Shown here: one piece after another, positions 2,724 to 30,581 of the stretch
Numbering within the stretch: the stretch's first letter is position 1
Layout of the letters: each line of letters starts with the position of its first letter
Assembly (NCBI GenBank): GCA_015055945.1
Contig: SVHH01000010.1
Location: 1 to 32,805 of the forward strand
DNA from: Clostridiales bacterium
Lineage (GTDB): Bacteria > Bacillota > Clostridia > Christensenellales > Borkfalkiaceae
Reading direction: 5' to 3'
DNA length: 32,805 nt
Made by a program: the position numbers and the translations under genes
The notes under the pieces: model-generated
What the model saw: only the letters and a program-made list of their open reading frames with translations
What the model was told of the DNA's origin: nothing
Databases searched by the model: none

Positions 2724-3422
2724 TTATTCTATTCTCATCATTCTATATCCCACGCCGATATGCGTTTGAATATACTGTGGAGAATCTGGTTCTATTTCAA
2801 TCTTCTTTCGAAGCGTTGCCATAAACACACGCAAGGACGCAACGTTGCTTTCCCAAGCCGCGCCCCAAATCTTTTGAGTTATAAAGGTATGAGTGAGAAC
2901 TTTCCCTACGTTTTGAGAAAGCAAACACAGCAATTTATATTCAATAGGTGTTAAATGTAACTCGTTGTCGTTAATATATGCACAACCCGCGGCATAATCA
3001 ATTTTAAGATTACCGTTTGTAAATAGTGAGTCCGATTGCATTGCTGAATGCAAGACAGACAATCTTCGTGTGGTAACACGAATTCTCGCAAGCAATTCTT
3101 CCACAGAAAACGGTTTGGTTAAATAATCATCAGCGCCTGCATCCAACGCTTCTATTTTATCATTATCTTCACTTCTGGCACTGATAACGATAATTGGCAT
3201 TTCCGACCAAGTTCGTATCTTTTTTATTACCTCTATCCCGTCAATATCAGGAAGACCTAAATCAAGCAAAACAATATCGGGATTGTGTGAAGATGCTTGC
3301 ATTATTGCGTTTTCTCCGTTTTGAGCGGTTAAGTATTTGTATTCGTGCGCCTTTAACGTAGTCGTAATTAAATTACGGATAGGCGCGTCATCTTCAACTA
3401 TCAATATCAATGGATTATTCAT
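2724..3422 (-). CDS. kdpE: KdpE-like response regulator
   Basis: This is an OmpR/PhoB-type response regulator that would be phosphorylated by the KdpD kinase and control potassium transport genes. The receiver domain spans residues 4-115, with acidic residues E10, D11 and D12, phospho-acceptor D54 in DIVLLDLGLPD and the conserved lysine in DDYLTKPFS. A winged-helix DNA-binding domain occupies about 130-232 (LTPIEYKLLCLL, GVGYRM). The 232-residue length is normal. Its ATG overlaps the last eight bases of the kinase gene (ATGAATAA), so translation is coupled. No kdpFABC genes are in the window; the likely target is the trk pair in the same operon. Confidence 0.93.
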   Translation of the reverse strand: MNNPLILIVEDDAPIRNLITTTLKAHEYKYLTAQNGENAIMQASSHNPDIVLLDLGLPDIDGIEVIKKIRTWSEMPIIVISARSEDNDKIEALDAGADDYLTKPFSVEELLARIRVTTRRLSVLHSAMQSDSLFTNGNLKIDYAAGCAYINDNELHLTPIEYKLLCLLSQNVGKVLTHTFITQKIWGAAWESNVASLRVFMATLRKKIEIEPDSPQYIQTHIGVGYRMMRIE

Positions 3423-4191
3423 TTATTTTTATCTCCCCAATAGGTAAAGTAAAGGTAAATATAGCGCCACTCGGCACGTTGTCTTTTACAAAAATTTCTC
3501 CGCCGTGCACGCTAATTATAGATTTACAAAGAGCAAGACCTAACCCGATGCTCCTACGGCTATCGGCTAACTTATTCGCTCCTATATAAAACATATCAAA
3601 AACACGCTCTTTTAATTCATCTGGAATACCTGCGCCGTTGTCGGCAATACTAATTATTGCTTTATCTTTTTGTTTTTCAGTGGTTATAGTTATCATTGAA
3701 TCTTTCGGCGTATATTTTATTGCGTTATCAAGGATATTGATAATAACTTGAATAATTAAGCGTGTATCCATTTTTGCAAGCAAAAATTCATCTTTATGGA
3801 CTACGGTTATTTTTTGTCCACCTTGACGCATATGAACGTGTTTAATAGCTTCAGCCACAACCTCGTCAATAAGTTCAGCCGTGAAGTTTAGATTCATTCT
3901 GCCTTCTTCAAAGCGAGTTATGGACAACAAGTTTTCAACAAGATTTATAAGCCACATTGAATCGTTGTAAATGTCGTTATAAATTGATAATTTAGTTTGT
4001 TCGTCAAAGGAAGATGCGTTCGAAATAAGATTGCTCGCATTTCCCGAAATAGCAGTCAACGGAGTACGCAAGTCGTGTGAAATTGCACGAAGTAGATTTG
4101 CGCGCAATTGTTCATTTTCGGCAAGCACTGCGGCAAGTTCTTTTTCTTTTGCGTTAAAAAGATTTTCAAGAGCTAACGCGCATTCGCCCAC
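3415..4191 (-). CDS. kdpD: KdpD C-terminal half: histidine kinase core of a split kdpD
   Basis: This fragment carries the dimerization/phospho-acceptor domain, with H39 in AISHDLRTPL, followed by the ATPase domain (N box near LDNAIKYT, G boxes DNGAGIP and GLGLALC). It begins at the point where intact KdpD proteins read ...LLLSILGECALALEN; here the frame reads SIVLSLVGECALALEN. The only usable start is a GTG at 4191 with no ribosome binding site, 16 bases after the stop of the upstream fragment. Expression would need re-initiation. It is either the downstream part of a pseudogene or a functional separate kinase subunit. The frame downstream is intact and overlaps kdpE. Confidence 0.85.
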   Translation of the reverse strand: MGECALALENLFNAKEKELAAVLAENEQLRANLLRAISHDLRTPLTAISGNASNLISNASSFDEQTKLSIYNDIYNDSMWLINLVENLLSITRFEEGRMNLNFTAELIDEVVAEAIKHVHMRQGGQKITVVHKDEFLLAKMDTRLIIQVIINILDNAIKYTPKDSMITITTEKQKDKAIISIADNGAGIPDELKERVFDMFYIGANKLADSRRSIGLGLALCKSIISVHGGEIFVKDNVPSGAIFTFTLPIGEIKINE

Positions 4192-4207: not shown

Positions 4208-5119
4208 CTATTTTAATTGCTCCGCCGTTATTTTCAAAACTTCTTCGTCGTCGCTTGCACGTTGTAATAACCGATTAGCATCAAAAAGAATTTTCGTTCG
4301 ATATGCCGCTTGTGAAGATTGTTTCGTTTGGTTATGCATTTTAGACGCCAAACTACCCGTAATTAAAGAAGCGACAAACATAATTGCAAACGTAATAGGA
4401 TATCCGTCACCGTAAGCCATTAATGAAAATCTTGGCTTTGTAAATAGAAAATTAAATATCAATACGCTTGCTACCGAAGAAAATCCCCACGCTAATTTAC
4501 TGCTTGTAACTATAGATGTTATCAACACACCAAGAATGTAAAGCGTTATAATATTAGCTTCAGAAAAGCCAAGATGGGCAAAAAATAGTCCAATTAAAGA
4601 AGTAACTATAATTACTCCAAGACTTATTGCAAGGTCTTTGACAATAGACAAAGCATTTGTTTTCTTAAATAAAGTTTCTTTTTGTTCTCTTAAATCAGAA
4701 TCAGCATCAGGAATAATATGAATATCTATATTCGTAGCAAGGGCAATCAATTTATCCGCAAGAGTAGGTTTTCGTATAATTCCCGCTCTTTTCGTTGCAT
4801 TTCTACCGATAACGATTTTGGTAGCACCTGATGTTTTTGCGTATTCAGCCATTTGAAGCGCTACGTCTTCACCATAAACGGTCACAATCGTTGCTCCCAT
4901 TCGTTCTGCAAACTTTATATTATTTTGTAATCGCTTTGCATTTTCCTCTGATAAGACTTCACTTTGGGAAGTTTTTATATACAACGCAGTAAGATTAGCG
5001 TCAAACGCTCTTGCCATTTTCGATGCAGTTTCAACAATTTTTGAATTGGAAGGAGCAGAAGATAGCCCAACTAAAATATGCTCTTTTTTCTTGGATTGTT
5101 TTTCCGCATTTTGCACCAT
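4208..5119 (-). CDS. kdpD: KdpD N-terminal half: Usp domain and four-helix membrane domain, truncated
   Basis: Residues 12-140 form the universal-stress-like domain (ILVGLSSAPSNSKIVETA, IVIGRNATKR). Residues about 160-260 hold the four transmembrane segments of the KdpD sensor module (DUF4118). The linker helix ITAEQLK then ends at a TAG. The N-terminal ATP-binding KdpD domain of enterobacterial proteins is absent, as is usual for short clostridial forms. The GAF-like domain expected next, by comparison with E. coli KdpD about 90 residues, is missing. The kinase core resumes in another frame at 4191. The start is supported by AAGGAGATGAAGT before the ATG. This looks like an internal deletion that also shifted the frame. 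Confidence 0.85.
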   Translation of the reverse strand: MVQNAEKQSKKKEHILVGLSSAPSNSKIVETASKMARAFDANLTALYIKTSQSEVLSEENAKRLQNNIKFAERMGATIVTVYGEDVALQMAEYAKTSGATKIVIGRNATKRAGIIRKPTLADKLIALATNIDIHIIPDADSDLREQKETLFKKTNALSIVKDLAISLGVIIVTSLIGLFFAHLGFSEANIITLYILGVLITSIVTSSKLAWGFSSVASVLIFNFLFTKPRFSLMAYGDGYPITFAIMFVASLITGSLASKMHNQTKQSSQAAYRTKILFDANRLLQRASDDEEVLKITAEQLK

Positions 5120-6176: not shown

Positions 6177-7508
6177 TTAACCTACCGTTATGTTGTCTAT
6201 AGGCAACTTTGAAACTTGTTTTTTATTTCCACCTAAAGCCGCATATATAAGGGTTAACCCGCCAACACGACCAAAAAACATCAAAATCATCAATATTATT
6301 TTCGATATTATCCCAAGAGATGGCGTAATACCTAGAGTTAATCCAACCGTACCGATTGCCGATGCCGTTTCAAAAAGGCATGTCATAATTGGCAACCCTT
6401 CAATGGAACTTATTATCATTCCGCCAAGCACAAACAACGTTACGTACATCAAGAATATTGTAATAGCATTCTTAACAGTATCATCATCTATTCTACGTTT
6501 CATAAGTTCTGCATTGTCTTTTTTCTTGAATACGGATATTGCAGATGAAAATAATACCGCAACCGTAGTCGTTTTCATACCGCCTGCCGTAGAACCCGGC
6601 GAGCCTCCAATTAACATAAGAATTATCATAAGCAACAAGCCCGTTCCACTAATAGCGGTTAAACTTGCCGTATTAAATCCTGCCGTTCTCGGGGTTATGG
6701 CTTGAAATAAAGAAACGAGAATTCTTTCGCCTATCGGTAAAGTAGTAAACTCAAAGAAAAAGAAATAAACAAAAGGGAAAAGGATTAAAAGTCCCGTTAC
6801 AAGTAGAACGACTTTACTTTGAGTTCTATATTTCTTTACTCTCCATTTATGTTTGCAAACGTCTTCCCATACAAGAAAACCGATACCGCCTATTATAATT
6901 AACAGCATAACAGTTATACTAATTATGGGTTGTGCAGAATAATTTGTTAGCGAACTAAAATCTCCACTTTTCGTCCCCATAATATCAAACCCCGCATTGC
7001 AAAATGCAGATACAGAGTGAAATATTGCCATCCAAATTCCTTCAACTCCATAATCTTTACAAAAGATAGGCAACATTATTAAAGCGCCGATTAGTTCTAT
7101 AATAAATATTCCTTTTATTATAAAGCCAACTAAACGAACTATGCCGCCTACGCTTGGAGCAGATATTGCTTCTTTCATCGTGCCACGACTAAAAAGACCA
7201 ATTTTTTTACCTGAAAGTAGCGCAAACGATATCGCTACCGTTACAATACCCATACCACCGATTTGGATTAAAATCAATATTATTATTTGCCCAAAAATCG
7301 TCCAATGCGTTGCCGTATCAAAAACAACTAACCCAGTCACGCATACAGCTGACGTTGATGTAAACAAAGAATCAATAAAGGAAGTCCATTCGCTCGATTT
7401 GCTCGATATTGGAAGGGAAAGCAAAAATGCTCCAATAAAAATTACTGCTGCAAAACCGAGTAAAATAATTTGAAAGGAAGATAATTTGAATTTTGTTTTA
7501 ACTTCCAT
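6177..7508 (-). CDS. trkH: TrkH/KtrB-type potassium uptake channel
   Basis: This is the membrane pore subunit of a Trk/Ktr potassium transporter. The four pore-loop repeats are visible with their selectivity-filter glycines: TSAVCVTGL (about residues 51-59), FCNAGFDI (about 164-171), PRTAGFNTAS (about 270-279) and GTVGLTLG (about 382-389). Several hydrophobic helices separate them. The 443-residue length fits KtrB-like proteins. AGAGGTG precedes the ATG. It is first in the operon trkH-trkA-small membrane protein-kdpD-kdpE. No c-di-AMP riboswitch was recognised in the short leader. Confidence 0.95.
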   Translation of the reverse strand: MEVKTKFKLSSFQIILLGFAAVIFIGAFLLSLPISSKSSEWTSFIDSLFTSTSAVCVTGLVVFDTATHWTIFGQIIILILIQIGGMGIVTVAISFALLSGKKIGLFSRGTMKEAISAPSVGGIVRLVGFIIKGIFIIELIGALIMLPIFCKDYGVEGIWMAIFHSVSAFCNAGFDIMGTKSGDFSSLTNYSAQPIISITVMLLIIIGGIGFLVWEDVCKHKWRVKKYRTQSKVVLLVTGLLILFPFVYFFFFEFTTLPIGERILVSLFQAITPRTAGFNTASLTAISGTGLLLMIILMLIGGSPGSTAGGMKTTTVAVLFSSAISVFKKKDNAELMKRRIDDDTVKNAITIFLMYVTLFVLGGMIISSIEGLPIMTCLFETASAIGTVGLTLGITPSLGIISKIILMILMFFGRVGGLTLIYAALGGNKKQVSKLPIDNITVG

Positions 7509-7753: not shown

Positions 7754-8710
7754 TTATAAAACTTTTGATAAAAATTCTTTTAATCTTTCGTTTTTAGGGT
7801 TATCGAAGAAGTTTTTGGGGTCGTTTTCTTCTTGAATTTTACCTTCGTTCATAAATAGAATTCTAGACGCAACTTCTCTCGCAAAGCCCATTTCGTGCGT
7901 AACAACCACCATGGTCATACCTTCGTTTGCAAGGTCTTTCATGAGTTCTAAAACTTCGCCAACCATTTCGGGGTCGAGCGCGGAAGTCGGCTCGTCAAAG
8001 AGCATAACTTCAGGCTCCATAGCGAGTGCACGAACGATTGCAATACGCTGTTTTTGTCCGCCAGATAAGGTAGACGGATAAACGCTTGCTTTGTCTTCTA
8101 AGCCTATGCGCTTTAGTAATTCAAAAGCCTTTTCTTGCGCTTGTTCTTTAGTTTTAAGTTTAAGGTTGACGGGGGCAAGGGTAAGGTTTTCTAAAACGGT
8201 AAGGTTATTAAAAAGATTGAAGTGTTGGAAAACCATACCGATTCTAGCGCGCGCCTTGTTTACGTTAAGAACGTGCTTTGTATAGAAATCTTTAATAGCC
8301 TTTTTATAAAGTTTACCTTCGCGCTTTTTAAGCAAGTCGTTTTGCTTAATTTCTTTAATTGCAGCGTCCCTAACTTGTTCTTCGGTTAAAGATTTATCTT
8401 GAGCGTATTTTTCTTTTATTTCAGCAAAAGTGTTTGATAATTCAATAATATCAAAGTGAAGATAAGGATCAACTGGGGTAAGAAGGTTATCGTGAAACCA
8501 AACTTCACCGTAAGTGGGTTCTTCCAAAAGGTTTAAGCAGCGGAGCATAGTAGATTTACCGCTACCAGACGGACCTATTACAACCACTTTTTCACCTTTT
8601 TTAATATCGAGTGAAACGCCTTTTAATACTTCTAACTTACCAAAGTTTTTATAAAGCCCTTTAATGCTTATTACTTTTTTGTCGTCGGGAGTGATATTAT
8701 TTTTTTGCAT
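7754..8710 (-). CDS. Polar amino-acid ABC transporter ATPase with a large insertion
   Basis: This is the ATP-binding subunit of a GlnQ-type amino-acid importer. The Walker A GPSGSGKS (46-53), Q-loop Q162 in [10 protein letters not shown], signature LSGGQ (215-219), Walker B LFDEP (D239, E240) and H-loop H272 are all present, so it should be active. The protein has 318 residues, where GlnQ proteins usually have about 240. The extra is a lysine/glutamate-rich helical insertion at about residues 80-152, between Walker A and the Q-loop. The gene overlaps the permease gene by 14 bases and has AAAGGAGA upstream of its ATG. Confidence 0.93.
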
Positions 8711-9386
8711 CAGTATTCAATCTCCTTTCCATAAACTTAACAAGCAACGATATAATGTAAACTATTACGAAGTAGGTAACGGCAAGCATTATATAGGGGA
8801 TAAAGTATTCATAAGTTGATTCTGCAATAGCCTTAAATGATTTAGTAAGGTCGGTAACGGCAATCAAACTTAAAACGGAAGTTTCTTTAATGAGTGAAAT
8901 AAATTCGTTACCAAGCGTAGGTAATATATTCTTAAAAGCTTGGGGGATAATGATTTTAATCATTGTCGTAGTGTAGCCAAAACCTAAGCTTCTGCCCGCT
9001 TCCATTTGTCCTTTATCAACAGAGTTAATACCGCCACGCATAATTTCAGAAATATACGCTGCAGAGTTAAGCCCAAAAATAAGGCTTGCTTCAACAACGT
9101 CTTCCAAAAGTAAACCAAGGGCAGGGAAAACTGCAAAGTGTAAAAGCAATAATTGCACAACTATAGGAGTTCCCCTAAAAATTGCAACGTAGCCATCACA
9201 AAGTTTTTTAAGAATATTAAAAAGAACGTTTTTTGCAGGAACAAGTTTTACTACTGCAATAATGCTACCGAGTAAAAAACCTATAAGCAAACCAAACACT
9301 GCTATTAAAGCAGTGTTTGTTAAGCCTGTAAGAGTAAGTTTGTACCCTTCTTGTTCTATAAATTTTTCAACAAAAGTGTTCCACAT
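8697..9386 (-). CDS. Polar amino-acid ABC transporter permease
   Basis: This membrane subunit of the HisMQ/GlnP family should form the homodimeric pore of the importer. The EAA-type coupling loop that contacts the ATPase is clear near residues 134-160 ([21 protein letters not shown]). About five hydrophobic helices are visible. The 229-residue length is typical. The gene starts two bases after the stop of the binding-protein gene and has no separate ribosome binding site, so it depends on coupled translation. The substrate cannot be told from sequence. Glutamate would suit the fermentation genes downstream, but that is speculation. Confidence 0.95.
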
Positions 9387-9388
9387 AA

Positions 9389-10246
9389 TTATTTATTCAT
9401 TGAAGAAGTAATCATCAAAGAAGGTTGTTTGTCAAGGATTACAGCATTGATTTTGCCGTTCTTAAGGTCTTGCATTGCAAGAGCGCCAGTGTCGTAAGCC
9501 TTTGTTTCAAGGTTAGTAAAGCCATCGTAGCCAAAGTCAGCGTCACCTGCAGAATACATATAACCAGTAGTACCTTTTTGAGTACCTACTTTGAATTCTT
9601 TGTTTTGAGCTTTGAGAACGTTTTCAACGTCTTCTACGGTTTTGCATTCATCAAAAGTAGTGTCGCTTGCTAAAACTGTAATAACTTGAGCAGAAGTATA
9701 GTAGCCTTCAGCGAAGTCAACTTCTTCAAGACGCTTTTCAGTAACGGTCATACCAGCCATTGCCATATCAACTTCGCCATTCTTTACAGAAGGAATAAGT
9801 GCGTCGAATTCCATATCTTTAATGTAAAGAGTTTTGCCAAGCTTTTGAGCGATGATTGAAGCGAGTTGCATATCAACACCAGTAAGCTTTACACCGTTAT
9901 ACATTTCAAACGGGGGGAAGTAAGCGTTAGTACCAACGATGAGATAATCTGCTTTGTTTGCTGCAGTGGGTTCGGCAGGGTTGGTGTATTCGAAAGTAGC
10001 GTCGCCAGTAAAGAAAGAATCAATAACAGTAGCGAGTTCGCCAGTTTCTTCAAGGTCAGCAAGAATTGAGTTAACAGAGTCTTTTAATTCAGTGTTTCCT
10101 TTTGCAATAGCAAACGCATAAGTTTCACTTGTAAGTTCAATGTTCTTAACGTCAAGTTCAACCTTTTCGTTGTTGCAACCAGTAAGTGCAAATGCGGAAC
10201 ATAAAACAAGAACGCCGCAAAGCAAAATGCTTAATAATTTTTTCAT
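9389..10246 (-). CDS. Amino-acid-binding lipoprotein, apparently circularly permuted
   Basis: This is a substrate-binding protein of the SBP_bac_3 family, anchored as a lipoprotein (signal peptide 1-23, lipobox LTGC with C24). The usual N-lobe starts only at about residue 100 (YLIVGTNAYFPPFEM), and the ligand-binding arginine lies in GMTVTEKR (R172). The protein stops at DKQPSLMITSSMNK (285), where family members normally continue with a C-terminal LTxExYxIAVxKGNTEL...WF segment. Exactly that segment (residues 31-79: IELTSETYAFAIAKGNTEL...IDSFF) is found at the N-terminus, right after the lipobox. The order of the fold is thus permuted. AAGGAG precedes the ATG. Confidence 0.92.
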   Translation of the reverse strand: MKKLLSILLCGVLVLCSAFALTGCNNEKVELDVKNIELTSETYAFAIAKGNTELKDSVNSILADLEETGELATVIDSFFTGDATFEYTNPAEPTAANKADYLIVGTNAYFPPFEMYNGVKLTGVDMQLASIIAQKLGKTLYIKDMEFDALIPSVKNGEVDMAMAGMTVTEKRLEEVDFAEGYYTSAQVITVLASDTTFDECKTVEDVENVLKAQNKEFKVGTQKGTTGYMYSAGDADFGYDGFTNLETKAYDTGALAMQDLKNGKINAVILDKQPSLMITSSMNK

Positions 10247-10489: not shown

Positions 10490-10960
10490 TTATTTATAGT
10501 CAGTTCTACCTAAAAGATAGTCGATAGAAACGTTAAAATACTTTGCTAATTCTTTTAAGTTGTCAAGCGTTGGGATGGTGTTGTTACGTTTCCACTCTGA
10601 TATGACGTTTCTACTAAAGGGCATTACGTTTGCAATTTGAGAGTGCTTAACGTTCTTTTCTTTGCGCAAAGCGTCGTATCTTTCATAAAAAGAGCAAGGG
10701 CTAACTGATTCGATAAAATCGTTTTCGTTTTTTTCACAAATTAAATATTCAAACGAAACTTTGAAAAAGTCTGCTATCTTTACAAGAATTAAAACACTTG
10801 GGATAATACCAAATGTCAGTGCATTTCTAATAGGTGTTTGACTAATGCCGCTCTTTTTGCAAAAATCAGTAAGGTCTAAATCTTCATCATCAAGCAAGTC
10901 AATAAGCCTACTTTTAAATTTTAATGAAATTCTTTCTGTGTCTTTAGATATTTTCGCCAT
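10490..10960 (-). CDS. Regulator with two XRE-type HTH domains (copy 1)
   Basis: This is a probable DNA-binding transcriptional regulator of 156 residues. It has two Cro/C1-type helix-turn-helix modules in one chain: a diverged one at about residues 14-75 (DFCKKSGISQTPIRNAL, FFKVSFEYLI) and a canonical one at about 92-152 (SQIANVMPFSRNVISEWKRN, YFNVSIDYLLGRTD). It follows the paralogous regulator gene by 23 bases. The leader before its ATG (TATTTTGTAGAATT) resembles that of the paralog (TATTTTGTCGAGTT), so a tandem gene duplication is likely. No strong ribosome binding site is visible. Confidence 0.85.
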   Translation of the reverse strand: MAKISKDTERISLKFKSRLIDLLDDEDLDLTDFCKKSGISQTPIRNALTFGIIPSVLILVKIADFFKVSFEYLICEKNENDFIESVSPCSFYERYDALRKEKNVKHSQIANVMPFSRNVISEWKRNNTIPTLDNLKELAKYFNVSIDYLLGRTDYK

Positions 10961-10983: not shown

Positions 10984-11424
10984 TCAGTCAGTTCTACCTA
11001 AGAGATAGTCGATAGAAACTTCAAAGTAGTCGGCAATAATTTCTAATGAAGATATATTTGCTACAAATTTGCCTTGCAACCATCTTGTAAGATAACTTTT
11101 ATCAACGTGCCACTTTAGTGCTAACTTATAAGGTGTGTTTCCGTCTTTTTCAATAAGCGTGCGCAATCTATCTGCGAAATTAGAAGGTTTTTGGGCAGGG
11201 GTAAAACTATCATCTTCCGTATAGCCCAAAAGAAATTCTATTGAGATATTAAAATAATCGGCTATTTTTATTAAAGATTGAGTAGCGGGAATAATGCCAA
11301 AGTCTTTTGCTAAAGAAATTGCCCTAGCATCTACGCCTATTTGTTTGCAAGTTTTAACTTTTTCTTTTTCATCAAAAACTATCAATTCATTTATTCTGTT
11401 TTGAAATTCGACAGAATTGGTCAT
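10984..11424 (-). CDS. Regulator with two XRE-type HTH domains (copy 2)
   Basis: This 146-residue paralog of the downstream regulator has the same two-module build: a weak first helix-turn-helix (about residues 20-68, ending YFNISIEFLLGYTEDD) and a second at about 83-144 (YKLALKWHVDKSYLTRWLQG, YFEVSIDYLLGRTD). AAAGGGG lies about 13 bases before the ATG. The gene diverges from the 99-residue gene, and the shared gap holds repeated TTAGTAT half-sites that could be its operator. The pair resembles regulator genes of prophages or small genetic islands, but no phage genes are present. Confidence 0.85.
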   Translation of the reverse strand: MTNSVEFQNRINELIVFDEKEKVKTCKQIGVDARAISLAKDFGIIPATQSLIKIADYFNISIEFLLGYTEDDSFTPAQKPSNFADRLRTLIEKDGNTPYKLALKWHVDKSYLTRWLQGKFVANISSLEIIADYFEVSIDYLLGRTD

Positions 11425-19392: not shown

Positions 19393-19797
19393 ATGAAGAC
19401 AATAGTTATTGGTGTAATCGGTGCAGACGTTCACGCAGTGGGTAACAAGATTATCGAATACGTTTTGAAGAACGAAGGCTATAACGTAGTTAATATCGGC
19501 GTTTTATCTTCACAAGAAGATTTTATCAACGCTGCTATTGAAACTAAGGCTGATTTAATTATGGTATCATCTCTCTACGGTCAAGGCGAAATTGACTGCC
19601 GTGGTATGAGAGAAAACTGCATCGAAGCAGGTATTGGCGATATTCCGCTTTTTGTTGGCGGCAACATCGTTGTTGGTAAGCAAAACTTCGATGACGTAAG
19701 AGCAAGATTTGAAGCGATGGGCTTTAACAAAGTTTACGGTCCTGGTGTTCCTATTGAAGAAACTTTGCCCGACATCAAAGAACTTTTGGGAGAATAA
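19393..19797 (+). CDS. glmS: Glutamate mutase sigma subunit (cobalamin-binding)
   Basis: This is the small subunit of glutamate mutase, which binds adenosylcobalamin and with the epsilon subunit rearranges L-glutamate to (2S,3S)-3-methylaspartate. The base-off/His-on motif DxHxxG is visible as D12, H14 and G17 (GADVHAVG), followed by the SLYGQGE loop and the nucleotide-tail region GGNIVVGKQ. The 134-residue length is normal for GlmS/MutS. AAAGGTG precedes the ATG. It is the first gene of a glmS-glmL-glmE operon. Confidence 0.97.
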
Positions 19798-19801
19798 TTA
19801 G

Positions 19802-21190
19802 ATGAGCCGTTATCTTATGATAGATTTCGGTTCTACTTTTACCAAACTGACGGCGGTTGATACTGAAAAAGAAGATATTATTGCCACCGCAAGTCATTTT
19901 ACAACTGTAGATACCGATATCACAATCGGGTATAACAACGCTCTTAAAGTTCTTGCTGAAAAGTTAGGGGAAGAAAATCCCAAGTTTGATAGAATTATCG
20001 GTTGTTCGTCAGCGGCGGGCGGTCTTAAAATGGCTGCTATCGGGTTAGTCCTAGAACTTACCGTGGAAGCGGCAAGGCGGGTATGCTTAGGCGCTGGTGC
20101 AAAAGTTGAACTTTCCTTTTCACACCACTTAACGAATGCGGACGTCGATAAGATTATTGAAAAAAAGATAGATATTATTCTTCTTTCAGGCGGAACTGAC
20201 GGCGGTAACGACGAGTGCGTGTTGTTCAACCAAAAAATGCTTTGTGAACGCGGAATTAAAATCCCCATCATCTTTGCGGGTAACAAAAACTGCACGGATG
20301 AAATCAAAGCAATGGCTGAAAAATACGGCATGAACGAGTATTATTGTGAAAACGTTATGCCTAGACTAAACGTTCTAAACATTGACAACGCAAGGGATAG
20401 GATACGCAAAATCTTCTTAGAAAATATCATCGTTGCAAAGGGTATAAAGAAGATTGAAGGCGAAATCGACAGGTTAATTCTTCCTACACCCGAATCAGTG
20501 CTCCGCGCGGCAACACTTCTTGCCGACGGTTATATGCACGAAAGTGGTTTAGGCGAAATAGTTTTAGTCGACATCGGCGGTGCAACTACTGATATGTACT
20601 CAATTTGTTCGGCATCAGCAAAGCGTAGCGACGTCGTTATTAAAGGTCTAGAAGAACCTTACGCAAAGCGTACGGTTGAAGGCGACCTTGGTATGAGATA
20701 CTCTGCGCTCGGCGTGTTATCTTCTTTAACTGAAGAAGAAATACGAATGATTGATGAAGACGAAGGCGTTGACCTAAAAAAAGAACTTCTTTACCGCCAC
20801 GAACACGTAGACACCGTTCCAAATACCCCAGAGCAAGTTAAGATTGACAGAATTATGGGTAGAATTTGCGTGGACAAGGCTATAAGTAGGCACGCTGGCA
20901 GAATGGAAGAGATGTACACGCCTATGGGCATGCTCTATAACCAGTTCGGAAAAGACTTAAGTAAAGTAAATTTCGTTATAGGTACGGGCGGCGTTTTAGT
21001 TCATAACGAAAACCCCGAAAAGATTTTAAGCGCAGTAGAGTATTCAATAAACAAAGGTTTAGAACTTAGACCGCGCTCGCCGAGATATATGCTCGACAAA
21101 GATTATATACTTGCAGCAATGGGCTTGCTTGCGGAAATTGACCCGCTACTTGCTCTTAAAATAATGAAAAAACATATTGTTAAAATATAA
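19802..21190 (+). CDS. glmL: GlmL/MutL, glutamate mutase accessory ATPase
   Basis: This ASKHA-fold (actin/Hsp70-like) ATPase is always encoded between the two glutamate mutase subunits and is thought to assist or reactivate the mutase by exchanging damaged cobalamin. The phosphate-binding motifs are clear: [17 protein letters not shown] (residues 4-20), [11 protein letters not shown] (about 257-267) and the adenosine motif [11 protein letters not shown] (about 394-404). At 462 residues it is full length. It starts four bases after glmS, with GGGAG inside the end of glmS as ribosome binding site. Confidence 0.95.
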
Positions 21191-21201
21191 ATGGTGAGAT
21201 T

Positions 21202-22668
21202 ATGATACAAAATAAAAAGATTAGTGAAAAAGACTTTTTAGCAGAAAGAGAACAAGTTTTAGCAACTTGGAAAACTGGTAAAGATTACCATCTTGATTTT
21301 GATGAATCAATACCTTTCTTAAAGAGTATTCCCGAAGAAAAGAACTTTGCGGATAAACTCGCTAAGGCTAAAAAATTAAAATCAAGAACACTCGTTCAAC
21401 CGCGTGCCGGCGTGCCCGTTGTGAATAAGCACATTGAACTTTTACAATACTTGGAAGATGCAGGTGCAGACTTCTTACCTAGCACAATAGACTCGTATAC
21501 CCGTCAAAACAGATACGTTGAAGCGGATATGGGTATTAAAGAAAGTATTATGAACGACCGTGCACTTCTTAACGGTTTTCCGTGTGTAAACTACGGTGTT
21601 ACCGGTTGTAAACAAGTTTTTGACGCGGTTAAAGTTCCCCTTCAAGCAAGACACGGAACTCCCGATGCAAGACTTCTTGCTGAAATTATCCACGCTGCTG
21701 GCTGGACTTCTAACGAAGGCGGCGCAATCTCTTATAACCTACCTTATGCAAAGAGCATTTCTTTGGAAGATTCTATCAAATACTGGCAATATTGCGACCG
21801 TTTGGTAGGTTACTATGAAGAAAACGGCGTTCACATCAACCGTGAACCGTTTGGACCTTTGACTGGTACGCTCGTTCCGCCGTCAATCTCCAACACTGTT
21901 GGTATTATCGAAGCGCTTCTTGCTGCTGAACAAGGCGTTAAGAATATTACCGTTGGTTACGGTATGGGTGGTAACGTTATTCAAGACGTTGCTGCTATCC
22001 GCTCACTTCAAGAACAAACCGAAGAATATCTTGAAAAATTCGGTTATAAAGACGTTGTCGTTACAACTGTATTCCATCAATGGATGGGTGGTTTCCCGCA
22101 TGATGAAACCGAAGCGTTAGGGCTTATTTCTTTCTCGTCAACCGTTGGCGCACTCTCTGGTGCAACCAAGATGATTACTAAAACCCCGCACGAATCAGTT
22201 GGTATTCCTACTAAGGAAGCAAACGCACAAGGTATCAAAGCATCTAAGTTTATCACTAGACTTCTTTGCGACCAAAGATTCCCCGACTGCAAAGAATTAA
22301 GAGAAGAAATTGAGCAAATCAAGAAAGAAGTTGATTGCCTTATGGACGCTGTTTTGAAAGTTGGCGACGGCGACCTTGCTCAAGGCACTGTAAACGCTTT
22401 TGCTCAAGGTCTTATCGACGTACCTTTCGCACCCAGTAAATACAACGCTGGTCTTATTCTTCCCGTTCGTGATAACGACGGTTGCATTAGAATTTTTGAA
22501 TTCGGTAACCTTGCATTTACTGATGAAATCAAAGAATTCCACCGCAAAAAGATTGAAGAACGTGCAGCCGCTGAAGGTCGTCCCGTATCTTTCCAATTTA
22601 CCATTGACGATATTTATGCAGTAAGTTTAGGTAGGATTGTTGGGCGTACTTCATACGTTGAAATCTAA
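21202..22668 (+). CDS. glmE: Glutamate mutase epsilon subunit
   Basis: This is the catalytic TIM-barrel subunit of glutamate mutase, where substrate binds and adenosylcobalamin is cleaved. Recognisable family segments are [21 protein letters not shown] (about residues 64-84), [17 protein letters not shown] (about 213-229) and [12 protein letters not shown] (about 291-302). The 488-residue length matches known GlmE/MutE proteins. GGTGAG lies before the ATG, 11 bases after the glmL stop. The stop is followed by a 310-base gap full of repeats before mal. Confidence 0.96.
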
Positions 22669-22701
22669 TTTTAAGCCAAACAAACTGCGCAATACTGTGT
22701 T

Positions 22702-22741
22702 AACACCCTTGTCAATATGCATGCTATTGCCTGCGGGTGTT
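22702..22741 (+). repeat. Stem-loop repeat, copy B
   Basis: AACACCC (22702-22708) pairs with GGGTGTT (22735-22741). The inner part contains CAATATGCATGCTATTG, identical to copy A at 16982-17026. The outer stem differs from copy A but keeps pairing. Confidence 0.75.
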
Positions 22742-22742
22742 G

Positions 22743-22895
22743 CCTTGTCTTGCTTGTTTCTTTGTCTTAAAATACTGCTGATGAGCCTATCCACGCTTGT
22801 ATCTAAACCCTTAAAACTCAATAGAACAGCAAGTACGCTCCCTTCACAAAGTTTAACTTTCCTTGTATTGCTTGTTTCTTTGTCTTAAAATACTG
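22743..22895 (+). repeat. 35-base direct repeat, two copies
   Basis: Positions 22743-22777 and 22861-22895 carry the same 35 bases with one difference (CCTTGTCTTGC or CCTTGTATTGC, then TTGTTTCTTTG and TCTTAAAATACTG). They start 118 bases apart. The first part is the tail module also found at R1 and R4. A shorter echo, CCTTGTTTTAAAATAC, follows at 22905-22920. Confidence 0.85.
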
Positions 22896-22978
22896 TTTGG
22901 CTTTCCTTGTTTTAAAATACATATTAAAATTAAAAACTATTAACTTACAAACAATCAAATTTTTAGAAGGTATAAATT

Positions 22979-24223
22979 ATGAAAATTATTGACGTTATTC
23001 TCACAAAATCATATACGGGTTTCTATTTTGACGACCAAAAGGCTATTAAGCAAGGTGCTGGACACGACGGCATTTTCTATATCGGCGAACCTGTTACCGA
23101 AGGCTTTACAAGTATCCGTCAAGCGGGTGAAGCAATTTCCGTTCAACTCGTTTTAGAAGACGGTACAGTAGGTTATGGCGACTGCGCTGCAGTTCAATAT
23201 TCAGGCGCAGGCGGACGCGACCCCTTGTTCTTAGCAAGTGATTTTATTCCTTTCATAGAAGAAAAAATTAAACCTATGCTTATCGGTGAAGACGTTTCTT
23301 CTTTTCGTCCTTTAGCAGAAAAATATGACAAACTTATCGTTGACGGCAAGCGTTTACACACCGCTATCCGTTACGGTATAACTCAAGCGCTCTTAAATGC
23401 TACTGCAAACGCTAAGAGAATTACTATGGCGGAAGTTATCCGTGCAGAGTATGACGTTGAAGGTAAAACTTACGAACCTATTCCCGTATTTACTCAATCG
23501 GGCGATGATAGACACGACAACGCTGACAAGATGATTATCAAAGAAGCAGACGTTCTTCCGCACGCACTTATAAACCACGTGGAAACCAAACTTGGCACTA
23601 AGGGCGAAATTCTTCTCGAATACATTGCATGGCTTCGCGACCGTATCTTAAACCACAGAGTAAACGCGGACTATAACCCCGTATTCCATATTGACGTTTA
23701 CGGAACTATCGGTTTAGCGTTTAACTATGACGTAGATAAGATGTTTAATTATCTTTTAGAATGTGAAAAGACCGCTGCTCCCTTTAGAATTCGTATTGAA
23801 GGTCCTATCGATACTGGCGATAGAGAAGGCACCCTCCACTATGAAAAAGTTCTCACCAAAATGCTTGATGATTGCGGCAGCAAACTTCAAATCGTTGCGG
23901 ACGAATGGTGCAACACTTTAGAAGACATCAAACTTTTTGCTGACGAACACGCTGGACACGTTCTTCAAATCAAAACTCCCGACCTTGGCGGTGTAAATAA
24001 CGTTGCTGAAGCAATCATTTACTGCAACCAAAAGGGAGTAGGTAGTTATTGCGGCGGTACTTGTAACGAAACCGACCAATCAGCAAAAACTACTACTAAC
24101 ATTGCAATTGCATGCCGTGCAATTCAATGCCTTGCAAAACCTGGTATGGGCGTTGACGAAGGTTACATGATCGTTAAAAACGAAATGAATCGTGTTATTG
24201 CATCAGCAAATAAGCGTTCATAA
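22979..24223 (+). CDS. mal: Methylaspartate ammonia-lyase
   Basis: This enolase-superfamily enzyme removes ammonia from 3-methylaspartate to give mesaconate. The catalytic and metal residues known from Clostridium tetanomorphum are all present, shifted by one: Q173, H195, magnesium ligands D239 (HIDVYG), E274 (IEGPID) and D308 (VADEW), and the base K332 (QIKTPD). At 414 residues it is full length. AGAAGG precedes the ATG. The stop codon lies inside the first bases of the next intergenic repeat (R4). Confidence 0.98.
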   Translation: MKIIDVILTKSYTGFYFDDQKAIKQGAGHDGIFYIGEPVTEGFTSIRQAGEAISVQLVLEDGTVGYGDCAAVQYSGAGGRDPLFLASDFIPFIEEKIKPMLIGEDVSSFRPLAEKYDKLIVDGKRLHTAIRYGITQALLNATANAKRITMAEVIRAEYDVEGKTYEPIPVFTQSGDDRHDNADKMIIKEADVLPHALINHVETKLGTKGEILLEYIAWLRDRILNHRVNADYNPVFHIDVYGTIGLAFNYDVDKMFNYLLECEKTAAPFRIRIEGPIDTGDREGTLHYEKVLTKMLDDCGSKLQIVADEWCNTLEDIKLFADEHAGHVLQIKTPDLGGVNNVAEAIIYCNQKGVGSYCGGTCNETDQSAKTTTNIAIACRAIQCLAKPGMGVDEGYMIVKNEMNRVIASANKRS

Positions 24224-24446
24224 ACGGCGCAATACTACGTTTACTGCTCTGCAAAAACGACTTCGATAACCAAAAAGGTTTATTTCATCCAAAACAAAAA
24301 AGGGTATCCCGAAAAAGATTTTGCGAAGCAAAAGATTTTTTGGGAAGAGGAAGAACAATTGCAAAATATTGCACTTTGTTTTTATCAAAGTGCTGATATT
24401 GCTTATTAGTTCTGACGAGCGAGCCTTGTCTTGCTTGTTTCTAAAC
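24220..24446 (+). repeat. Modular intergenic repeat, copy R4, with an inserted segment
   Basis: It has the same head (ATAAACGGCGCAATACT), centre (TTCGATAACCAAAAAGGTT, TCATCCAAAAC) and tail (GCCTTGTCTTGCTTGTTTCT) as R1. About 110 extra bases lie between centre and tail. The extra part holds two hairpins: a long one around CCCGAAAAAGATTTTGC (24308-24342) and GCACTTTG/CAAAGTGC (24371-24393). The head begins at the mal stop codon. The 350-base gap to citD holds no gene. Confidence 0.75.
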
Positions 24447-24485
24447 GCTTATTACATAAACAAGCGTTAAGCGCAATATAGCATG

Positions 24486-24553
24486 TTGACAATAAAAGCA
24501 AATTATTATGAAATATTAAAAAACTTGCCTTACACTATAGAAGCGTAAGGCAA
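24486..24553 (+). promoter_or_regulatory. Probable cit operon promoter region and 5' hairpin
   Basis: TTGACA at 24486-24491 is a consensus -35; a weak -10 (TATGAA or TGAAAT) follows near 24507-24514. A perfect hairpin TTGCCTTAC/GTAAGGCAA (24525-24533 and 24545-24553) then lies before the citD ribosome binding site. On the opposite strand the hairpin is followed by a T-run and would work as a terminator. Confidence 0.45.
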
Positions 24554-24576
24554 AAAGTATATATGGAGATGAAATT

Positions 24577-24831
24577 ATGAAGATAGGGGTCTGTGGCTCT
24601 CTTGAATCAAACGATGCACTTATAACGGTTAAACCTAGTGAAAAACAAGAAATCGTTATCAAAAGTATCGTTTACGATTTTTTCCACGAACAAATTGAAC
24701 AAGTTATTAAAGACACCTTAAAAGAAGTTAATAAGGAAAATTTAAGCGTGCTTTGTGAAGATAAGGGCGCGCTTGATTACACCATAAAATCAAGACTTTT
24801 AACGGCGATTAAGCGTATGGAGGAAAAATAA
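24577..24831 (+). CDS. citD: Citrate/citramalate lyase acyl carrier protein (gamma subunit)
   Basis: This small acyl carrier protein bears the 2'-(5''-triphosphoribosyl)-3'-dephospho-CoA group on which the acetyl thioester of the lyase turns over. The attachment motif is GSLESND, with the modified serine at S11 by alignment to the GTLESSD motif of the Klebsiella protein. The 84-residue length is slightly short but complete. GGAGATGAAATT precedes the ATG. Its stop overlaps the citE start by one base (TAATG). In this neighbourhood the complex probably cleaves citramalate rather than citrate. Confidence 0.93.
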   Translation: MKIGVCGSLESNDALITVKPSEKQEIVIKSIVYDFFHEQIEQVIKDTLKEVNKENLSVLCEDKGALDYTIKSRLLTAIKRMEEK

Positions 24832-25691
24832 TGAGAAGAAGTTTACTCTTTATGCCGGGCAATAACCCTGCTATGCTCCAAAATTCCGACGTTTTTGAAG
24901 CGGATGCCGTTATTTACGACTTAGAAGATGCCGTTTCAGTAACTGAAAAGGATGCCGCAAGGGTACTTGTTGCAAACTTTATCGGTGCAAGAAAGGCAGC
25001 CTTTCCGATGGAAATAGTAGTTCGTATCAACGGACTTGACACTGATTTTTACGCGGAAGATTTAAATGCCGTAGTAAGCGATAAAATCGATACGATAATG
25101 CTCCCAAAAGCAACGCTTGAAACGCTTATTGAACTCGATAAGATTTTAACTGATATTGAAAACAAGAAAAATCTTACCAAAAAGATAGGGGTTATTCCTA
25201 TTATTGAACTTGCTTGTTCGGTTTTAGAAATTGATCAAATTGCAAAAGCGCCCAGAGTTAACGGTATTCTTTTGGGGGCGGAAGACTTGACTTCCGACTT
25301 AGAAGTTTCAAGAACCAAAAAGGGTGATGAAATTTTATACGCCCGCCAACGCGTAGTTATGGCTTGCGCAGCGTATAAACTCGATTCTATCGACACGCCT
25401 TTTACCGACACTAACGACGAAGACGGACTACAAACCGACAGTAATTTTGCTTTGGGGCTTGGTTTTACTTCAAAAGCGGCAATTCACCCCAACCAAGTTG
25501 GCGTTATCAACTCTACTTTTGTTCCCACAATGGATAAAATTAAGTGGGCACTCCGCGTAGAACAAGCAAACAAAGCGGCTTTAGAAAAGGGCTTAGGCGT
25601 ATTTAGTCTTGACGGTAAGATGGTTGACAAGCCCATTATTGAGCGCGCAAAGAAAATTTTAGTTAAAGCAAAGCGTTATAATCTCATTTAA
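24831..25691 (+). CDS. citE: Citrate/citramalate lyase beta subunit
   Basis: This is the lyase subunit that splits the acyl-carrier thioester into acetyl carrier and the 2-oxo acid (pyruvate if the substrate is citramalate, oxaloacetate if citrate). It is an HpcH/HpaI-type TIM barrel. RRSLLFMPGNNPAML opens the chain, VIYDLEDAVS (about residues 27-36) and GAEDLTSD (about 148-155) supply the metal and substrate residues. The 286-residue length is standard. It is translationally coupled to citD and followed after five bases by citF. Confidence 0.95.
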   Translation: MRRSLLFMPGNNPAMLQNSDVFEADAVIYDLEDAVSVTEKDAARVLVANFIGARKAAFPMEIVVRINGLDTDFYAEDLNAVVSDKIDTIMLPKATLETLIELDKILTDIENKKNLTKKIGVIPIIELACSVLEIDQIAKAPRVNGILLGAEDLTSDLEVSRTKKGDEILYARQRVVMACAAYKLDSIDTPFTDTNDEDGLQTDSNFALGLGFTSKAAIHPNQVGVINSTFVPTMDKIKWALRVEQANKAALEKGLGVFSLDGKMVDKPIIERAKKILVKAKRYNLI

Positions 25692-25696
25692 GTATT

Positions 25697-27202
25697 ATGA
25701 AAAACATTTTAGGTAGAGAAGTTCCCCAAGGCTTTAAGGCATTTAACGGGAGCAGTGAATATAAAAAAGTACAATTTAATAGAATTTCTAAAAAGAAAAC
25801 TTCTGACGGCGTTATTATGCTCGACAGTTACGCCGATTTATTCGATAAGTTGGGTATTACCGACGGTATGACCTTATCTTTTCACCACCATTTAAGAAAC
25901 GGCGATTACGTTCTTGACGAAGTGTGCAAAGAGATTAAGAAAAGGGACTTGAAAAATATGGGCTTTGCACCCAGTTCAATTTTCCCCAACTATTCTTCTA
26001 TGGTTGAACTTATTGAAAACGGCAATATCACCAGCATTTCAACCGACTACGCTAACGGACCTGTTGCTGCGGCTATTTCTAACGGCAAGTTAAAAGATTT
26101 GTTCGTTATGTATACGCACGGCGGCCGCCCCGTTGCAATAGAGAGCGGCGATCTTCGCATTGATGTTGCAATTTTGGCAGTTCCCACCGTTGATAAAAAC
26201 GGTAACGGTACTGGTGAAATAGGTAAGAGCGCGTGCGGGAGTTTAGGTTATGCGGTAAGTGATCTTATGTATGCGGACAAAGTAGTACTCGTAACCGATA
26301 ATTTGGTTGATAGCATAGAAGAGCCTTTCCTTGACGGAAAATACGTTGATTACGTGTTGAAAGTTGATGCTATCGGCGATCCCGCGGGTATCGTTTCTGG
26401 TACGACAAAAATTACCAAAGACCCCGTAGGGTTAAAGATTGCGCGCCTTGCGGCAGCAGCACTTGATAAAATCGGTTTGATTAAGGACGGCGTTTCAATG
26501 CAAACTGGTGCGGGCGGAACTTCGCTTGCAGTTGCATCTTTCGTAAAGAAAATGATGCAAGAGCGTGGTATTAAGGGTAGTTTTGCTTCGGGCGGTATTA
26601 CTGGATATTTTACCGATATGCTTGAAGAAGGCTTGTTCGATGAACTTTATGACGTTCAATGTTTTGACTTGTCAGCAGTTCAATCAATTGCTAAAAATAA
26701 AAATCACCACGGAATGAGTGGCAGTCGTTACGCAAGTTGCTTTGACGATAACGTCGTTGACAAACTTGACTTTGTTATCTTGGGTGCAACAGAAATAGAC
26801 CTTGACTTTAACGTAAACGTAACTACCGACTCACACGGACTTATTATGGGTGGCTCGGGCGGACATAGCGACACTGCACACGGCGCTTTCGTTACGGTTA
26901 TCACAACTAATCTTATCAAGTCTCGTATGCCTATCATTAAAGAAAAGGTTACCACGGTAACCACACCTGGTGAAGACGTTGATATTTTGGTTACCGAACG
27001 CGGTATTGCCGTTAACCCCAAAAGACAAGATATTTTGGATAAATTAAGTAAAAGCGGGCTTCCCGTTTGCACTATTGAAGAGTTGCTTGAAAAAGCGTAC
27101 GAAATCACTGGCACTCCTTCAAAACCCGTTCAATCAAAAGAGCCCGTTGGCGTTGTGGTTTACCGCGACGGAACGGTTATCGATACTATTTATAAGATAT
27201 AA
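25697..27202 (+). CDS. citF: Citrate/citramalate lyase alpha subunit (acyl-carrier transferase)
   Basis: This subunit exchanges the acetyl group on the carrier protein for the incoming citrate or citramalate, releasing acetate. It belongs to the CoA-transferase-like CitF family (LSFHHHLRNGDYVLDEV, SMQTGAGGTSLAVASF, GGSGGHSDTAHGA). The 501-residue length is normal. It has no clear ribosome binding site and starts five bases after citE, so translation is coupled. Whether citrate or citramalate is used cannot be told from sequence; the flanking glutamate mutase and mal genes favour citramalate. Confidence 0.95.
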   Translation: MKNILGREVPQGFKAFNGSSEYKKVQFNRISKKKTSDGVIMLDSYADLFDKLGITDGMTLSFHHHLRNGDYVLDEVCKEIKKRDLKNMGFAPSSIFPNYSSMVELIENGNITSISTDYANGPVAAAISNGKLKDLFVMYTHGGRPVAIESGDLRIDVAILAVPTVDKNGNGTGEIGKSACGSLGYAVSDLMYADKVVLVTDNLVDSIEEPFLDGKYVDYVLKVDAIGDPAGIVSGTTKITKDPVGLKIARLAAAALDKIGLIKDGVSMQTGAGGTSLAVASFVKKMMQERGIKGSFASGGITGYFTDMLEEGLFDELYDVQCFDLSAVQSIAKNKNHHGMSGSRYASCFDDNVVDKLDFVILGATEIDLDFNVNVTTDSHGLIMGGSGGHSDTAHGAFVTVITTNLIKSRMPIIKEKVTTVTTPGEDVDILVTERGIAVNPKRQDILDKLSKSGLPVCTIEELLEKAYEITGTPSKPVQSKEPVGVVVYRDGTVIDTIYKI

Positions 27203-29917: not shown

Positions 29918-30100
29918 CCAACGAAGTTGCGCTTTATAAACCAAGCGCAGAAAGCAAGGGAAGCACGGTGAAATTCCGTCGCAACGGTCATTACGGTTAA
30001 AGCCCGATAACTTGCTCGTTGGTGGGCGTTTTCTCTCTTGGGCAGTGAAGAAATGGGGAAATGCTAAATATATTGTATGCGCCCAAGTGGCGCATTTTTT
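29918..30100 (+). promoter_or_regulatory. Cobalamin riboswitch with terminator
   Basis: CCAACGA (29918-29924) and TCGTTGG (30016-30022) form the closing stem. The GGTGAAATTCCG segment (29968-29979) and the B12-box-like AGCCCGATAAC (30001-30011) match the conserved core, and GCAAG/CTTGC pairs inside. Downstream, ATGCGCC/GGCGCAT plus a T-run (30077-30100) is an intrinsic terminator. CTTGGGC (30037-30043) can instead pair with GCCCAAG (30081-30087) and break it. Cobalamin binding would then favour termination and shut off the DUF4430 and ECF genes. Confidence 0.9.
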
Positions 30101-30152: not shown

Positions 30153-30578
30153 ATGAAAAAATTAACTAAACTTTTTGCATTTATGCTTGTTTTAGTAAGC
30201 ATGATGACTATGTTTGCCTGCCAAAACCCCACTACCGATAACGGAGATAGAGAACCGTCTGATGCGGACGTTATTATGACCGTGTCAGCCGCGGAGTTTG
30301 ACCTTGAAGGTAAAACTTTGAAAGATTATATGGATCACCTTGTAGGTAAGGGCGAACTCATTTATACACTTGCCGACGGTATGATTACCGAAATCAACGG
30401 AACTAAGAACGGACTTAACTCTTACTGGATGCTCTACACCGACGATACTGAAAACTCTAACACCGCGTGGGGCACTTACGAAGTAGGTGGCAAAACTTAC
30501 GCATCAGCAGCGGTTGGCGCTACTGAACTTGCATTAAAAGACGGCTGCACTTATATTTTTACCTATCAAACTTTTTAA
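30153..30578 (+). CDS. DUF4430 (transcobalamin-like) lipoprotein
   Basis: This 141-residue lipoprotein has a signal peptide with lipobox MFAC (C23), followed by one DUF4430 domain (about residues 40-141; the SYWMLYTDD and LKDGCTYIFTYQTF segments are typical). DUF4430 shares the fold of the cobalamin-binding transcobalamin C-terminal domain. It lies directly after a cobalamin riboswitch and directly before an ECF S-component gene, so it is very probably a cobalamin- or corrinoid-capturing surface protein. AAAAGGAG precedes the ATG. Confidence 0.88.
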   Translation: MKKLTKLFAFMLVLVSMMTMFACQNPTTDNGDREPSDADVIMTVSAAEFDLEGKTLKDYMDHLVGKGELIYTLADGMITEINGTKNGLNSYWMLYTDDTENSNTAWGTYEVGGKTYASAAVGATELALKDGCTYIFTYQTF

Positions 30579-30581
30579 CAA

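Follow-up and report, generated by a model that had tools for sequence, protein, structure and literature searches.

A lipoprotein gene with a rotated domain order

The DNA analysed here (the window) is a stretch of 32,805 nucleotides from a Clostridiales gut bacterium of the Clostridia family Borkfalkiaceae (assembly GCA_015055945.1, contig SVHH01000010.1, positions 1 to 32,805 of the forward strand), and our subject is a gene on its minus strand encoding a lipoprotein of the SBP_bac_3 family of substrate-binding proteins (SBPs) in which the order of the domain is circularly permuted. The gene is followed by those for a permease, which starts 2 bases past the SBP stop codon, and an ATPase, which overlaps the permease gene by 14 bases; SBP, permease and ATPase together form the operon of a polar amino acid ATP-binding cassette (ABC) importer. 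The permease scored 62.5 with the NCBIfam model TIGR01726, above the cut-off of 42.2, and the ATPase reached 299 bits with the GlnQ equivalog, under its cut-off of 379. In the features listed below, the lobe limits are those given for TmArgBP in the available part of PMC9402392, mapped through the phmmer alignment with 6svf, and the canonical model is a profile of 223 columns built from 30 canonical SBP_bac_3 proteins (29 of the window's class and Escherichia coli GlnH).

9389..10246 (coordinates including the stop codon), minus strand: circularly permuted SBP_bac_3 lipoprotein of 285 residues (open reading frame, Pfam, phmmer, canonical model)
10175..10246, minus strand: signal peptide with lipobox LTGC, residues 1-24, Cys24 being the lipidation site by pattern
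10007..10156, minus strand: moved segment, residues 31-80 (phmmer, canonical model, profile-profile comparison)
9947..10006, minus strand: new linker of 20 residues (81-100), from the old C-terminus to the old N-terminus (canonical model, linker comparison)
9704..9946, minus strand: N-terminal part of lobe 1, residues 101-181 (phmmer and canonical model)
9731..9733, minus strand: Arg172, aligned to GlnBP Arg75 (alignment)
9689..9703, minus strand: hinge 1, residues 182-186 (6svf alignment, limits of PMC9402392)
9392..9688, minus strand: body of lobe 2, residues 187-285, with the new C-terminus at its end (phmmer, canonical model, AlphaFold2)
9431..9433, minus strand: Asp272, aligned to GlnBP Asp157 (alignment)
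8697..9386, minus strand: ABC importer permease (BPD_transp_1; TIGR01726)
7754..8710, minus strand: ABC importer ATPase, closest to GlnQ

Sequence evidence for the permutation

The PF00497 (SBP_bac_3) profile matched the SBP with 106.1 bits against a curated cut-off of 26.4, in two stretches: residues 102-219 corresponded to profile positions 1-114, and residues 27-94, which alone scored 20 bits (E=6e-4) and lay under the curated cut-off, to positions 98-131. At E≤1 only PF00497 and PF10613 matched the protein, which showed no membership of the type I (Peripla_BP) group. The rotation was also seen with phmmer against the PDB. Residues 102-278 aligned with chain positions 12-173 of AncQR (4zv1) and residues 37-79 with 189-231, while for TmArgBP (6svf) residues 99-275 aligned with 9-168 and residues 31-80 with 179-228; the matches of the moved segment were weak singly, at 12.5 and 17.8 bits with i-Evalues of 0.79 and 0.019 respectively. 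On the canonical model, columns 165-222 came first and columns 2-167 followed, with an overlap of 3 columns. Every part of the domain is present once, in the order C-terminal part of lobe 1, N-terminal part of lobe 1, lobe 2, and not in the canonical order (N-terminal part of lobe 1, lobe 2, C-terminal part of lobe 1); the homology runs in rotated order, with the old termini joined and new termini elsewhere, as in a natural permutant. The moved segment is single in the reading frame, by which we reject a duplication inside the gene; elsewhere in the genome it matches only a paralogue, with 28% identity, at E≤0.001.

The same segment was examined across the proteins that share the cut site of the window SBP (class IV, see below), excluding 14 of 109 rows with no lipobox pattern just before it. 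Compared profile to profile, columns 4-56 of the 95 remaining N-terminal segments aligned with canonical columns 169-221 at 99% probability, with E=4.3e-18 and 45% identity. Against the canonical model 94 of the 95 matched at column ≥150 and 91 scored >10 bits there, a score reached by none of 475 shuffled segments (maximum 9.9), which makes the moved-segment match more than a product of chance.

A sequence-only reading of this gene had placed the C-terminal segment of SBP_bac_3 right after the lipobox, with the remainder in its usual order, and had called this a circular permutation rather than a duplication. All of this is borne out: phmmer, the canonical model and the profile-profile comparison agree on the placement, the remainder follows in order, and the profiles, the homologues and the AlphaFold2 model agree with a segment that occurs only once. 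The profile comparison, which that reading had itself named as able to overturn it, matched residues 31-80 to the C-terminal columns, and homologues in the same order, which it had proposed to seek, proved to be many and to be joined by several other cut sites. Its segment limits of 31-79 needed extension to 31-80.

Predicted structure and probable function

A compact fold is modelled for the permuted SBP, AlphaFold2 returning one compact protein (predicted local distance difference test, pLDDT, 91; predicted template modelling score, pTM, 0.83). A sequential structure aligner covered mainly residues ~70-262 of this model. An archaeal permutant (L041, see below), modelled from a two-row alignment only, gave pLDDT 39.5 and pTM 0.39, and the informative structure model is that of the window SBP (class IV) only.

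By the TmArgBP lobe limits, drawn from the available part of their source, residues 31-37 of the moved segment form the last strand of lobe 2, residues 38-43 form hinge 2, and residues 44-80 form the C-terminal part of lobe 1. The segment would therefore complete mainly lobe 1, and not close the second lobe as had been proposed. The earlier suggestion that the tethering end changes is right in part: the lipid is still N-terminal, but its attachment changes; docking on the permease, which that reading also raised, may change with it. Because the moved piece completes mainly lobe 1, the anchor shifts from lobe 1 to lobe 2, and on these alignments this shift of the lipid anchor is what the permutation changes. 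From lipidated Cys24 the chain would run through the last strand of lobe 2 and hinge 2 into the C-terminal part of lobe 1, then along the 20-residue linker to the start of lobe 1, and through hinge 1 to its end in lobe 2. As aligned, both hinge crossings remain covalent, so that the protein should close on an alpha-amino acid as GlnH or HisJ does, a mode of binding to which the conserved Arg and Asp also point.

We take Arg75 and Asp157 of GlnBP to be the ligands of the alpha-carboxylate and alpha-amino groups of the amino acid, and their aligned counterparts in the window SBP are Arg172 and Asp272. Within the 200-row tree set described below, the Asp is kept in 115 and the Arg in 108 of 116 permuted rows, and in 81 and 58 of 84 canonical rows respectively. 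The lipobox pattern is present in 102 of 109 class IV reading frames. In 102 of the 109 class IV cases a permease homologue is encoded on the same strand, ≤600 bases downstream (three more are fused in frame, two have none and two have no room); the same holds for 13 of 16 of class IIa (two fused, one with no room), 9/9 of IIb, 15/17 of III and 4/4 of I, and for 91 of 100 canonical genes. Since the ligand Arg and Asp, the lipobox and the permease-ATPase operon are kept, the SBP most likely functions as part of an amino-acid importer, and the operon suggests that it would hand its amino acid to the adjoining permease. Relative to L003, an 82%-identical homologue, the ratio of non-synonymous to synonymous differences (pN/pS) came to 0.118 over the mature protein, with 0.136 in the moved segment and 0.211 in the linker, rough values given that synonymous sites are near saturation.

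Distribution of permuted proteins and their cut sites

We collected 255 distinct SBP_bac_3 reading frames covering ≥150 of the 223 columns (three of 258 were dropped), and 155 of these were permuted and 100 canonical, in a sample biased by its making, as many came through permuted queries and others as top Pfam matches. The permuted proteins fall at five cut sites, given as columns of the canonical model:

class IV, cut at ~168: 109 proteins
class III, cut at ~124-133: 17 proteins
class IIa, cut at ~95: 16 proteins
class IIb, cut at ~105: 9 proteins
class I, cut at ~16: 4 proteins

In classes II and III far longer pieces are moved and the total is still one domain. Two further genes (L269 and L271, outside the tree) are cut at ~107-109 and resemble the GlnPQ type by eye. 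Permutants occur across many families of the window's class and in one archaeon, and more than one order class was found in 29 of 220 sources; the window's genome has two SBP_bac_3 genes, both of class IV. Of 301 genomes in the window's family, 80 held a match at E≤1e-30, and some of these matches were canonical in order (e.g. L124 and L127).

A junction profile of 20 rows (A2) was run over 341 genomes of the class, a junction being a match from position ≤10 to position ≥161 with no stop. It found at least 78 junction-spanning places in at least 71 genomes and at least 25 families. Fifty of the 78 were fetched (L211-L240 and L247-L266), two of them being the window gene and L003, and 50/50 were permuted. 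The best Pfam matches in 196 genomes of the class, on the other hand, gave 30/30 canonical loci, 29 of which make up the bulk of the canonical model. One junction match running over stops (G310:C35) turned out to be an ordinary canonical gene (L267), and L174, considered as a partial duplication intermediate, was rejected as one domain with an insert (by eye). Pfam and NCBIfam annotation gives the permuted proteins names without revealing the rotation.

The archaeal permutant, L041 of Methanocorpusculum (2878-3756), is of class IIa and ends in a short hydrophobic C-terminal stretch; its cut lies near the site where ionotropic glutamate receptors insert the channel between S1 and S2. In the IQ-TREE phylogeny it branches from among IIa proteins that belong to the window's class, which suggests transfer. 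Five permuted SBPs are fused in frame to the permease (L016, 1306-2949; L030, 1489-3084; L135, 1484-3088; L253, 1161-2663; L255, 1433-3043), and in these the new C-terminus leads directly into the transmembrane domain.

Recurrence and origin of the permutation

Trees were built with the pieces laid in canonical column order, both segments together. FastTree on 200 rows (80% identity filter) gave 17 changes among six order states, 11 of them between canonical and permuted. IQ-TREE with the C20 mixture, run on the 69 rows left once 13 long, partial or odd ones had been removed and the rest thinned, gave 15 changes, ten of them between canonical and permuted, and eight of these ten are forced by starred branches; such counts carry no direction. 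The approximately unbiased (AU) test rejected the grouping of every permuted row in a single clade (p 7e-32), and likewise class IV as one clade (p 6.6e-6). Permutation thus seems to have been repeated, at several cut sites, in this bacterial group.

The linkers preserve possible traces of how it arose. That of L265 starts like the C-terminal tails of canonical L049, L055 and L059 and at its end resembles a canonical post-lipobox leader (z 12.3), and that of L266 starts like the tail of canonical L066, its sister in the tree. Resemblance to canonical leaders at z>3 was found for 8/17 linkers of class III, 4/108 of IV, 2/16 of IIa and 1/9 of IIb, in total 15/150. In one locus (L040) a class IV gene and a class IIb gene are neighbours, followed by a single permease and ATPase, and among 60 of the 83 junction matches in the PDB the only chain spanning the junction was GlnPQ with its two tandem domains. 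The route would be that a canonical gene was duplicated in tandem, the copies were fused in frame, the inner signal peptide was lost and both ends were trimmed. Given the linkers of other permutants, the tandem pair of differently cut permutants in L040 and the tandem-domain GlnPQ-type proteins, duplication, fusion and trimming is by analogy the most likely origin of the window gene.

A return to canonical order may also have occurred. L124 and L127 sit in a permuted clade (100/98), and their C-terminal tails resemble the linkers of permuted relatives (score 50, z 7.4 and score 63, z 9.9 respectively). The old C-terminal tail is where a linker starts, however, and ordinary canonical tails accordingly resemble some permuted linkers as well (z up to 10 in this comparison), so that the evidence for a reversal is suggestive only.

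Alternative explanations

That the gene is an artefact of assembly or binning of a metagenome-assembled genome (MAG), as its 18-contig assembly might prompt one to think, has a negligible chance of being true: a full-length copy with 82% identity in a sheep-colon MAG (L003, the same as L032) has the same order, as do genes in the single-contig genomes G492 and G520, and the 50 fetched junction loci refute it further. Residues 31-80 might instead form a separate small N-terminal domain, the SBP being truncated, with lobe 1 incomplete or otherwise completed. This would account for the weak matches of the segment to Pfam and phmmer in this one protein and for the sequential aligner covering mainly the rest of the model, but the profile-profile comparison matches the segment to exactly the missing columns, 169-221, and on this we reject it. 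The two pieces also jointly span columns 2-222 with the 3-column overlap, the AlphaFold2 model is compact, and the far longer pieces moved in classes II and III still sum to one domain; a separate domain is therefore very improbable.

A single ancient permutation, with the scatter in the trees due to gene conversion, horizontal transfer or alignment error, is unlikely, though less so than the preceding two. All permuted proteins share the logic of the junction, transfer is likely in places (as with L041), some of the scatter lies on branches of modest support, and the trees combine both segments rather than treating each separately; even so, both AU tests, the eight forced changes and the likeness of the L266 linker start to the tail of its canonical sister speak against it. 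Closest to an even chance, if slightly short of it, is that permutation as such serves no function and that the termini drift neutrally in a fold that tolerates cuts in surface loops. The several cut sites and recurrent switches favour this, as do canonical L124 and L127 with linker-like tails in a permuted clade and the presence of ArgT and HisJ permutants among working sensors (available part of PMC7503967). On the other side, cut IV has been kept over many genera in the window lineage, and lobe 2, with ~42% of the columns, contains four of the five cut sites, a bare count over few sites. Neutral drift rivals only selection on the anchor position and is compatible with the explanation we prefer, a permuted importer lipoprotein that most likely arose by duplication.

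Several observations weigh against that explanation. All 12 NCBIfam matches of the SBP are under their cut-offs and no substrate is named; the evidence for the fold is a prediction; in 6 of 50 rows the sequential alignment begins at model residue 27-29, matching some moved-segment residues in sequence order; the linker of the window lineage itself has no recognisable leader, so that a duplication origin for this lineage is argued by analogy; and no intact fused two-copy intermediate was present among the loci collected here. Nevertheless, we consider it highly probable that the window SBP is a permuted polar-amino-acid importer lipoprotein, which most likely arose via tandem duplication, fusion and trimming. 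We lean, by a narrower measure, towards the broader proposition that in Clostridia the termini of SBP_bac_3 proteins move about in evolution, the domain being re-cut repeatedly at no fewer than five sites by duplication and trimming, with at least one reversal that left a C-terminal linker remnant, and with selection on the attachment of the anchor or fused permease helping fixation.

Neighbouring genes

A promoter-like site at 10319-10291, 45-73 bases upstream of the SBP start, matches 11/12 consensus positions; the region holds ten such sites against a shuffle mean of 8.2 and is thus not enriched. Upstream of the SBP gene two adjoining small proteins (10490-10960 and 10984-11424, minus strand) each have an HTH_3 match. 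The operon's ATPase (7754-8710, minus strand) carries an insert of ~60 residues between Walker A and Q-loop, giving a spacing of 113, where 111 of 145 ATPase reading frames have 40-59 and 29 of 145 have ≥80; a tie between large inserts and permutation was rejected, as they also occur beside canonical SBP genes.

Further away lies a cluster identified with NCBIfam:

19393-27202, plus strand: fermentation cluster of the glutamate mutase (methylaspartate) type, also encoding methylaspartate ammonia-lyase and citrate-lyase-like subunits

Methylaspartate mutase S, GlmL and E, the ammonia-lyase and the citrate-lyase-type alpha subunit are above their cut-offs, and the beta subunit, also on the plus strand, is below. 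These genes point to glutamate fermentation by the methylaspartate route, a lifestyle that an amino-acid importer would fit. Adjoining reading frames at 3415-4191 and 4208-5119 (minus strand) separately match the middle and C-terminal parts of KdpD, as a split or broken sensor kinase gene would, and adjoin a response-regulator-like frame (2724-3422, by eye) and TrkH (6177-7508). An AdoCbl-II riboswitch at 29943-30021 (plus strand), barely above the gathering score, stands upstream of a small lipoprotein-like frame and a membrane-protein-like frame (30153-31106, by eye).

Comparison with known systems

Natural circular permutation is generally described as something rare that befalls a family once, and repeated permutation at several sites, for which the case on sequence is strong, is the more surprising part of these results. 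In a single, common transporter family it seems to have happened again and again: there are several cut sites, tandem genes and tandem domains that may be precursors, linkers that may record the route, and perhaps a reversal. The duplication-and-trimming model of permutation would thereby become directly testable in natural data. For biosensor design the family would also be a source of existing permuted binding proteins of the glutamine/arginine type, and it would offer an experiment already made by nature on what moving the membrane tether does to docking of the binding protein on the permease.

We found no report of a natural SBP_bac_3 permutation in the open-access literature (most subscription journals were outside its scope) and no solved permuted SBP_bac_3 structure among 60 of the 83 junction matches in the PDB. 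Engineered permutants of the family do exist, and in the names of the sensors that follow we take 'cp' to mean that the binding protein is permuted. The available part of PMC7503967 tabulates cpFLIPR, FLIP-cpArgT194, FLIP-cpHisJ194 and cpLAO-BP as working sensors, permuted SBP_bac_3 proteins that still sense ligand but are man-made and soluble. In their available parts, PMC7683729 and PMC6335823 deal with engineered uses only, and PMC3597751 with permuted ATP-grasp domains and not binding proteins.

The nearest natural parallel is TpMglB-2 (Tp0684) of Treponema pallidum, described with its Gram-positive homologues as a natural circular permutation, 'Type Ic / Cluster Bc', in the available part of PMC4990184, whose authors raise membrane anchoring as a possible reason for it. 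Both it and the window SBP are naturally permuted binding lipoproteins of ABC importers. However, going by the same part of that source, TpMglB-2 binds glucose, is of type I (cluster B), has its cut in the N-lobe and needs a fourth hinge crossing, whereas the window SBP belongs to PF00497 (type II), does without the extra crossing, and comes from a family with five cut sites.

With the canonical cluster F (type II) proteins GlnH, HisJ, ArtJ and AncQR the window SBP shares the Pfam family, the Arg/Asp pair, the permease-ATPase operon and, by prediction, the fold; it differs from them in segment order, in its anchor on lobe 2 and in an extra linker between the old termini. In GlnPQ of Lactococcus lactis (6h30), where tandem SBD1-SBD2 domains are fused to the permease, the permuted junction can be aligned without a break to that between SBD1 and SBD2, and some permuted SBPs are likewise fused to a permease; GlnPQ, however, has two complete canonical domains, whereas the window SBP has one domain made from two partial ones.
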